NCBI RefSeq assembly: GCF_900168005.1
Contig: NZ_FUYP01000004.1
Coordinates: 62,001 to 126,000 of the forward strand
Direction of reading: 5' to 3'
DNA: 64,000 nt
Source of the DNA: Sphingopyxis flava
GTDB lineage: Bacteria > Pseudomonadota > Alphaproteobacteria > Sphingomonadales > Sphingomonadaceae
Position numbers and translations under genes: made by a program. Under the pieces are notes generated by a model. The model was not told the DNA's origin and ran no database searches. It saw only the letters and a list, made by a program, of their open reading frames with translations. Every line of letters starts with the position of its first letter. Positions within the stretch are counted from its first letter, which is position 1. Shown here in pieces: positions 34,482 to 35,937 of the stretch.

Positions 34482-34513
34482 CCGATATAAAGATGATATC
34501 ATATTTATATCGG
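34482..34513. promoter_or_regulatory. 32-bp near-perfect palindrome before the SPFH operon
   Basis: Outer arms CCGATATAAA (34482-34491) and TTTATATCGG (34504-34513) enclose a second palindrome ATGATATCAT (34493-34502); the only broken pair is G34492 against A34503. It is by far the most AT-rich element nearby, overlaps the likely -10 region, and its right arm reaches the first bases of the ribosome site GGAGGG. It should be the operator of the operon. The ribbon-helix-helix protein encoded two genes on is a natural candidate ligand (inference). Confidence 0.7.
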
Positions 34514-34521
34514 AGGGCGTC

Positions 34522-35427
34522 ATGAATGTTTCGATTGCAACAGCCGCGCTGAACCAGACGCGCGAAGTGCGCGCGGCAACCGCGAGCGGCTATCTCATGC
34601 TGTTCATCTGGATCATGCTGCTGGCGCTCGCGCTGTGGGCCGGGATCAGCAACGGCACTGCCGAGGTCCAGGTCGGGTGGAAATGGGCGGTCGTCGTTCT
34701 CTCCGCCATCATTGGCTCGCTAATCCTCTGCGGCTTCTATCTCATCAACCCGAATGAGGCAGCAGCGATCCAGCTCTTCGGGAGCTACAAGGGTACCGAC
34801 CGGGAGACCGGGCTGCGCTGGGTGCTGCCGTGGCTCAGCCGCAAGAAGATCACGGTGCGTGCGAACAACATCATCTCCGACAAGATCAAGGTCAATGATC
34901 TGCGCGGCAACCCCGTCGAGATGGCCGCCCAGGTCGTGTGGCGCGTCACCGACACCGCCCAGGCGCTGTTCGACGTCGACGATTACAAGGAGTTCGTTCT
35001 CGCGCAGATCGAGGCAGCGGTGCGGTCGATCGGCTCGCGCTATCCCTATGACGATATCGAGCATCAGGAAGTCACGCTGCGCGGCAACCACGACGAGGTC
35101 GGCGAGGAATTGCGCAAGGCGCTGATCGAGCGGCTCGCGGTCGCAGGGATTACCGTCGACGAATGCGGCCTCACCCACCTCGCCTACGCGCAGGAGATCG
35201 CCGGCGCGATGCTCCGCCGCCAGCAGGCCGAAGCCGTGATCGCAGCGCGCAAGAAGCTTGTCGAGGGCGCGGTGACGATGGTCGAAATGGCCCTTCAGCA
35301 TCTCTCCGAAAAGGATGTCGTACATCTCGACGACGAGCGCAAGGCGGCAATGGTGTCGAACCTGATGGTCGTGCTGTGCGGCGAGCGCGACACCCAGCCG
35401 GTGGTAAACACGGGCTCGCTCTATTGA
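34522..35427 (+). CDS. SPFH/Band 7 domain membrane protein
   Basis: 301 residues from ATG 34522 (GGAGGG upstream). Two membrane helices at the N-terminus ([20 protein letters not shown] and [20 protein letters not shown]) precede the SPFH domain: [20 protein letters not shown], then [20 protein letters not shown] and [20 protein letters not shown]. The C-terminal coiled region has [25 protein letters not shown] composition. SPFH proteins assemble into rings or cages that organise membrane microdomains and often control membrane proteases. The usual NfeD or FtsH partner is absent; instead a ribbon-helix-helix protein and a small membrane protein follow. Confidence 0.9.
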
Positions 35428-35446
35428 GCGCCCGCGAGGCCGAATC

Positions 35447-35647
35447 ATGCCCGCGTCCAAGAAAGCTTTTGCCCTACGCCTCGATCCCGCGCTCTATGCG
35501 GCGATCGAGCGCGCCGCGGCGGCTGATCTGCGCAGCGCCAACGCCGAGATCGAAGTGCTGCTGCGCGAGGCGTTGGCACGGCGCGGCGTCACGGTAAAGC
35601 CACCCCAGCCACCGAGACGCGGACGCCCACCCAGGGAGAATGACTGA
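35447..35647 (+). CDS. Arc-like ribbon-helix-helix DNA-binding protein
   Basis: 66 residues. A beta strand (AFALRLDPALY) followed by two helices (AAIERAAAADLRSANAEIEV, LLREALARRG) gives the Arc/MetJ fold, with alternating residues on the strand for major-groove contacts. A basic proline-rich tail (KPPQPPRRGRPPREND) follows. Such dimers are often autorepressors. Nineteen bases after the SPFH gene; its stop overlaps the next start (TGATG). Probably binds the palindrome at 34482 (inference). Confidence 0.85.
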   Translation: MPASKKAFALRLDPALYAAIERAAAADLRSANAEIEVLLREALARRGVTVKPPQPPRRGRPPREND

Positions 35648-35937
35648 TGCTCCACCTCTTCCTCGACGATCGCCCCTGGTTCCGCCCCAAGACCCACGGC
35701 TATGGCGCCGGCCTGCCGATCGCGTGGCAGGGCTGGGTCATGCTTGCCATGCATGTTGCGCTGATCGCGGGCCTCGCGATGCTGCTCAATCAAGAACCCG
35801 TCGTGATGACGCTGCTCCTCATCATCGCGGCGTTCGCGCCCTTACCGCTCTACCACGCCCGGACCAAAGGCGGCTGGCGCTGGCGCTGGGGCGAGCGGGC
35901 TGCGGACATGCGGCGGCGAAAGGGGCGCCGGAAATAG
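35647..35937 (+). CDS. Small hypothetical membrane protein of the SPFH operon
   Basis: 96 residues. Two membrane helices (GWVMLAMHVALIAGLAMLL and PVVMTLLLIIAAFAPLPLYH) and a very basic C-terminus (KGGWRWRWGERAADMRRRKG). I know no function. Translation is coupled to the ribbon-helix-helix gene by a one-base overlap, so it is a genuine member of the operon. Confidence 0.8.
   Translation: MLHLFLDDRPWFRPKTHGYGAGLPIAWQGWVMLAMHVALIAGLAMLLNQEPVVMTLLLIIAAFAPLPLYHARTKGGWRWRWGERAADMRRRKGRRK

Follow-up and report, generated by a model that had tools for sequence, protein, structure and literature searches.

How are the SPFH scaffolds of bacteria controlled, and what do they sense? To our knowledge both questions are largely open, and they are raised in a specific form by a locus of Sphingopyxis flava, where a gene for an SPFH protein is preceded by a long palindrome and followed by a gene for a small Arc-type ribbon-helix-helix (RHH) protein. 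The locus lies in a stretch of 64,000 nucleotides, the whole of which was analysed and is hereafter called the window. The SPFH proteins of 497 genomes have been divided into 12 subfamilies (Hinderhofer 2009, PMC2636767); according to that paper, a conserved operon structure is found for SPFH1, SPFH2 and SPFH5, and no NfeD was found for the remaining subfamilies; its main text contains none of the terms repressor, DNA-binding and CopG. Likewise, in the available part of a 2026 paper on nine P. aeruginosa SPFH proteins (PMC13086221), the terms Arc family, DNA-binding and repressor are absent. In the excerpts of the open-licence literature that touch on both SPFH and ribbon-helix-helix, the latter appears in a reference title only, and the SPFH neighbour that is named is NfeD. 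Operons that join an SPFH gene to a partner are known, as are autorepressors of the RHH type; we found no description of their union under a shared operator in the open-licence literature searched, in agreement with the initial annotation of this DNA, which knew of none. In this paper, we propose that the SPFH gene and the Arc-type RHH gene form a two-gene module under negative autoregulation, a reading to which we give a probability of about 0.75. A repressor, an operator and a scaffold recurring together in five phyla would offer a direct handle on SPFH control, and it would be unusual for an operator to keep its sequence across phyla.

Layout of the locus and its proteins

The locus had been described initially as three tightly packed genes, with a 19-base gap and then a one-base overlap, and the coordinates bear this out (Table 1): 19 bases separate the SPFH and RHH genes, and the RHH gene shares one base with the gene of the small protein behind it.

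Table 1. Features of the SPFH-RHH locus, in positions of the window
Feature	Position	Strand	Remark
-35-like hexamer TTGACC	34466..34471	+	kept in close relatives
Putative operator, palindrome of 34 bp with a single broken pair	34481..34514	.	longest in the window; boxes kept in relatives
Operator box 1, GATATA	34484..34489	.	11-bp register with central box
Operator box 2 (central), GATATC	34495..34500	.	1.7-2.0 bits per base
Operator box 3, TATATC	34506..34511	.	11-bp register
SPFH/Band_7 gene, 301 aa	34522..35427	+	PF01145, E=7.8e-25
Codons of SPFH C-terminal tail, NTGSLY	35407..35424	+	tail pattern in RHH-linked SPFHs
Arc-type RHH gene, 66 aa, probable autorepressor	35447..35647	+	family profile against PDB
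AT-hook-like RGRP core in C-terminal tail of RHH	35618..35629	+	kept in close relatives
Gene of small two-helix membrane protein (WQGW type), 96 aa	35647..35937	+	accessory, lineage-specific

The product of the first gene belongs to the Band_7 family, with a score of 88.4 bits against PF01145 (cut-off 23.6). It matches only itself in the genome from which the window is taken, where four Band_7 proteins are encoded in all. With HflK/HflC, the modulators of FtsH, it shares that HflK chains are the only relatives with a solved structure found by sequence (three distinct chains, best E=3.3e-4); it differs from them in its equivalog scores, which lie far below the cut-offs (TIGR01933, 23.4 vs 159.4 bits; TIGR01932, 18.6 vs 134.4 bits), in its two N-terminal helices and in its neighbour. 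These two helices, already pointed out initially, are visible as hydrophobic stretches in the sequence, and are placed with fair confidence at residues 20-45 and 52-74 (pLDDT 64-83 by ten-residue block over residues 21-70) in an AlphaFold model that is otherwise poor (mean pLDDT 42). The corresponding model of the RHH protein consists of one helix (mean pLDDT 74), and neither model was used beyond the N-terminal helices of the SPFH protein. As in the SPFH-NfeD operons (SPFH1, SPFH2 and SPFH5), the SPFH gene shares a short conserved operon with a single partner gene, whose product here is a predicted DNA-binding protein and not NfeD. Neither of the two proteins encoded downstream, the small 96-aa protein included, has an NfeD match up to E=1 or matches a Pfam family over its cut-off.

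The RHH protein can be placed through its family, whose profile is similar to those of Arc-type proteins in the PDB (pArc, E=5.1e-7; Arc repressor, E=0.0029). The Pfam Arc model PF03869 is matched at E<=0.1 by 15 of 19 family members; the window's own protein (P0002) has 14 bits, below the cut-off of 20.4. Members of the family carry diverse database names, i.e. Arc family DNA-binding protein, HicB family antitoxin, hypothetical protein and PTS ascorbate transporter subunit IIC. The last of these names, probably given in error, is carried in Deinococcus by a protein of 65 residues (L151:2762-2959) whose gene follows that of the SPFH, in the place of the RHH gene.

Recurrence of the gene pair

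In the following, close relatives are the window and 80 loci from a contig search, sphingomonads by most record titles, and the others are loci from surveys and from plasmid, phage and viral records, further sphingomonads included. The sample comprises 148 loci, 136 with the RHH gene (RHH+) and 12 without it (RHH-); most of it consists of related sphingomonads, and some genomes were probably counted twice (e.g. L031 and L092, whose contigs are equally long). The RHH gene lies directly behind the SPFH gene in all 80 close relatives fetched (the best 80 of 447). In a survey of the phylum, an SPFH relative at E<=1e-40 was found in 46 of 398 genomes, with an RHH gene nearby in 43 and none in G566, G110 and G252. 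A survey of the class found the SPFH in 8 of 240 genomes, four of which also have the RHH gene; the SPFHs of the remaining four are remote (43-49% identity). The reverse survey, starting from the RHH protein, gave matches in 43 of 396 genomes, 41 of them strong (E below 1e-20) and two weak (3e-8 and 5e-8), and a comparison of coordinates placed the 41 strong ones within ~300 bp behind an SPFH gene and the two weak ones elsewhere. The RHH gene adjoins the SPFH gene in G610, G611 and G175 as well.

Outside the phylum, the pair together with its boxes was found in Deinococcota (2 records), Bacteroidota (3), Actinomycetota (1) and Bacillota (1); among the four Deinococcus records two have the RHH gene, and L139 and L152 are without it. 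Named plasmid records that carry the pair come from Qipengyuania, Deinococcus, Parabacteroides, Prevotella, Phocaeicola, Nonomuraea, Acetoanaerobium, Bosea and Rhizobium, and the viral contigs contain one relative, L150. As the sampled bacteria in which the gene pair and its putative DNA switch occur together belong to five phyla, the comparison suggests an old, self-controlled module.

A small RHH protein encoded next to one partner also calls to mind a toxin-antitoxin system, in which the SPFH protein would be a membrane toxin and the RHH protein its antitoxin and autorepressor, and the Qipengyuania copy is indeed named 'toxin-antitoxin system HicB family antitoxin'. However, the SPFH partner matches no toxin family, there is no PADLOC match at E<=0.01, the surveyed genomes hold one copy each, and the SPFH gene of G566 stands without any RHH gene of the family. 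In addition, an SPFH at E<=1e-40 occurs in 13 of 72556 plasmid records, some of them chromosome-sized, and 12 of the 13 are typed as non-mobilizable. We have rejected this reading for want of a recognisable toxin partner, and consider it very unlikely.

Two loci of the sample deserve a remark. The SPFHs of L145 (a plasmid record of P. aeruginosa HN232) and L157 (an Enterococcus phage record) are copies on adjacent zero-length branches, which suggests a wrong label on at least one of the two records, or foreign bacterial DNA in it.

The putative operator and the promoter region

The palindrome had been reported initially as a nested one of 32 bp with a single broken pair that reaches into the ribosome site. 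The single broken pair holds, the measured length is 34 bp, and the nesting corresponds to three boxes, GATATA, GATATC and TATATC, spaced 11 bp apart. The next-longest palindrome in the window has 24 bp; in 60 dinucleotide shuffles the maximum was 30 bp, with 0/60 reaching 32 bp. An 18-base stretch of the palindrome, with up to three mismatches allowed, occurs at a single place in the 4.16-Mb genome. Absence of the palindrome before homologous operons had been named as the finding that would speak against the initial proposal; the boxes are present there.

Conservation of the central box amounts to 1.7-2.0 bits per base across 80 close-relative and 51 other upstream regions, which were chosen by a box-pair score of at least 9 and aligned on this box. 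A second box (at least 4/6 matches) lies exactly 11 bp away in all 73 close relatives with an exact GATATC and in 46 of the 48 other loci with one, and boxes of this quality flank the central one on both sides in 61/73 and 15/48, respectively. Other distances account for at most 12% of loci. These spacing counts, as well as the RGRP counts below, exclude L129, L144, L156, L158 and every locus in which no box could be used. Relatives such as L054, L063 and L075 have the boxes without the long symmetry. It is the box ladder, rather than the long symmetry, that is kept across groups.

This distinction bears on whether the palindrome acts in the mRNA, as a hairpin or an RNA thermometer hiding the ribosome site. 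The RNA of the window folds at -14 kcal/mol (z -2.4) into a stem that ends at GGAGGG, and contact with the ribosome site is real in the window (GGAGGG, 34512-34517). Nonetheless, such contact is not kept: because GGAGG is set off by several bases from the palindrome's end in many relatives, e.g. L013, the overlap is not a conserved feature. Among the five sequences folded, the ribosome site is free of the stem in L013 and L103, the centroid of L093 has no such stem, and L118 forms a stem of only 7 pairs; furthermore, the loci that keep the boxes without the long symmetry, and a conservation that tracks the 11-bp register, argue against a role in the mRNA. A hairpin that folds in the window and is not kept among the five sequences was thus rejected, and we hold this explanation to be highly improbable.

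Upstream of the boxes, the hexamer TTGACc is kept 29 bases before the central GATATC in the close relatives, window included (80 upstream regions). In close relatives it ends 12 bases before box 1, with most of the intervening bases varying, and for this reason the boxes probably overlap the core promoter. A scan with the strict sigma-70 consensus found no promoter at the operator region. In the operator of the P22 Arc repressor, subsites lie about one turn apart over the core promoter. The window's RHH family shares with P22 Arc its Arc-type profile and an R-S-x-N motif, and its boxes would share the arrangement just described for Arc; it differs in being paired with the gene of a membrane scaffold, in the sequence GATATC of its boxes, and in the AT-hook-like tail of its sphingomonad members.

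A protein bound at these boxes might activate the promoter, or merely insulate it, instead of repressing it. AmrZ, another RHH protein, is reported to act both as an activator and as a repressor (PMC3325190). With box 1 starting 12 bases behind the -35-like hexamer, though, occupancy would be expected to block the polymerase, and we regard activation or insulation as unlikely.

The AT-hook-like tail mentioned above carries an RGRP motif, which we take to resemble the core of an AT-hook; Pfam support for an AT-hook consists of one weak match. RGRP is present in all 80 evaluable loci of the 81 formed by the window and its close relatives, and in 15 of 51 others, i.e. 14 sphingomonads and L142. 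A strict link between RGRP and the third box was considered and rejected, as 10 loci outside the close relatives have the hook without a third box and 12 show the reverse.

Joint presence and absence of the RHH gene, the boxes and the SPFH tail

Repeats (L001, L002, L083, L084, L087-L089 and L149) and other Band_7 genes (L146-L148) were left out before box pairs were counted, and L156 and L158 offer hardly any upstream sequence, so that 134 RHH+ loci were scored. A score of at least 10/12 for GATATC-N5-GATATC was reached by 129 of these 134 loci, compared with 47 of 13504 control windows from the same loci. By group, the proportion was 80/81 in close relatives and 35/38 in RHH+ loci outside the window's family (40 less the two without upstream sequence). 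Among the five low scorers, L129 and L144 have boxes visible outside the stretch scored, L143 and L154 have one clear box left, and L073 scores 9. On the other hand, 11 of the 12 RHH- loci score 6 to 9, like most control windows; the exception is L150 with a score of 12, on a contig that breaks off at the stop codon of a small gene that precedes the RHH gene in L125 and L126. When the exact form GATAT-N6-GATATC was looked for in whole genomes, 34 of 44 RHH+ genomes and 0 of 6 RHH- genomes had it at their SPFH promoter (list read by eye).

The C-terminal tail of the SPFH protein follows the same division. The pattern N-x-G-[STN]-[LIV]-[YHN], at most three residues from the C-terminus, is found in 136/136 RHH-linked SPFHs and in 1/12 unlinked ones, the exception again being L150, at a contig end. 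A narrower pattern had given 124/136 and 1/12 at a first look, and because the present one was drawn up after that look, the count describes these loci and does not amount to a blind test. The tail count covers all 148 loci, and a tree of SPFHs, for which the tool issued warnings on some joins, covers 52 of them. In this tree L124 (genome G566) is sister to the RHH+ locus L121 with support of 100/94. The SPFH of L124 ends in INTGSSTAGH, no box pair stands at its promoter, and no RHH of the family was found in the G566 genome at E<=1e-3; read from these sequences, L124 is one clear joint loss of the RHH gene, the operator and the tail. As this is the only RHH loss that is clearly nested, the other unlinked SPFHs being deep or long branches, the tail may in part be a clade marker.

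The self-regulation by the Arc-like protein that the initial annotation put forward is strongly supported by such comparisons, in which the putative operator is absent where the RHH gene is absent. That annotation also proposed to survey whether the three genes and the palindrome travel together; the SPFH gene, the RHH gene and the box ladder do, and the third gene and the long symmetry do not.

Alternatively, the boxes could be bound by a different, genome-wide regulator, with the RHH protein acting elsewhere. This is favoured by the exact form GATAT-N6-GATATC occurring away from the locus at ~27 places in the 44 RHH+ genomes vs 5 for the reversed control (4 of them in G523), an excess that is hard to weigh because the reversed control pattern holds rarer words, and by three box pairs on one contig of G175. 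Yet the window's genome has no second copy of the 18-base stretch, the operator tracks the presence and absence of the RHH gene across groups, both being gone in L124, and the off-locus pairs have unlike spacers. Five off-locus regions that were opened had no common pattern, and two of them lie inside long reading frames. We judge a different regulator improbable, and continue with the RHH protein as the likely ligand of the boxes. Given the ~27 off-locus pairs against 5 matches of the reversed control, there may also be a small wider regulon of box pairs.

The G175 genome, which has the module, carries the three exact GATATC-N5-GATATC pairs at positions 62448, 85297 and 101779 of its contig 5 (155 kb; L160-L162), with a third GATATC close by in L160; by a rough estimate, three such pairs exceed chance.

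Proposed mechanism

The sequence comparison supports the pairing of the genes and an operator that keeps an 11-bp register, is concentrated at the SPFH promoter and is absent jointly with the RHH gene and the tail. On this basis we infer that the RHH protein is a DNA-binding repressor. Its dimers would bind side by side on GATATC boxes that follow one another at 11 bp, one helical turn, and the occupied boxes, lying over the probable core promoter, would block transcription of the SPFH gene, the RHH gene and the genes behind them, so that the more RHH protein is made, the less the operon would be transcribed. That RHH dimers on the boxes hold the operon down in this way seems to us very likely.

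As to the scaffold, its two N-terminal helices would hold it at the membrane, with the SPFH domain in the cytoplasm. The best candidate for a contact with the RHH protein is the SPFH tail, i.e. N-x-G-[STN]-[LIV]-[YHN]. If the tail bound the repressor, the amount or the assembly state of the scaffold could alter RHH activity and tune its hold on the operator, and the scaffold would thereby report on its own amount or assembly state. We offer this feedback as a tentative proposal, with the odds somewhat against it. In PspA/PspF-type feedback, which is concerned with membrane stress, a membrane-associated protein holds back a regulator, and the feedback inferred here would have in common with it the idea of a membrane protein restraining a regulator; a role in membrane stress, as suggested initially for the module, would be speculative. 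If true, it would make the RHH protein part of a partner system parallel to SPFH-NfeD, with an operator kept from Bacillota to Bacteroidota.

The third gene and other neighbours

Among the 80 close relatives, 48 loci encode a protein of the WQGW type, to which the product of the window's third gene belongs, 25 encode a second small type, and 72 encode at least one of the two. Beyond the close relatives, the WQGW type occurs in further sphingomonad loci only and the second type was not found. Homology between the two membrane-protein types is unsupported (hhalign probability 3.5%). The three-gene form was found in sphingomonads only; the third gene varies, encoding small membrane proteins of different types, or was not found. 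Judged by its distribution in these sequences, the third gene is outside the conserved core, which is formed by the two genes and the operator. The recurrence of unlike small membrane proteins at this place is suggestive of a shared need.

Several loci have further genes at the module. A short, soluble-looking reading frame (MQWEYKVVELNTQ...), which we take to be of the DUF4177 kind, seemingly lies between the SPFH and RHH genes in L120, perhaps with a frame change. A different hydrophobic protein of ~85 residues with two likely membrane helices is encoded behind the SPFH gene in L125, L126 and L150, and its gene precedes the RHH gene in the first two. Finally, in several sphingomonads (L017, L021, L022, L037, L044, L071-L073 and L079), a gene of 313-329 residues lies behind the RHH gene, near the small membrane-protein gene; its product resembles a secreted alpha/beta hydrolase (PGSGPTDRDGN motif).
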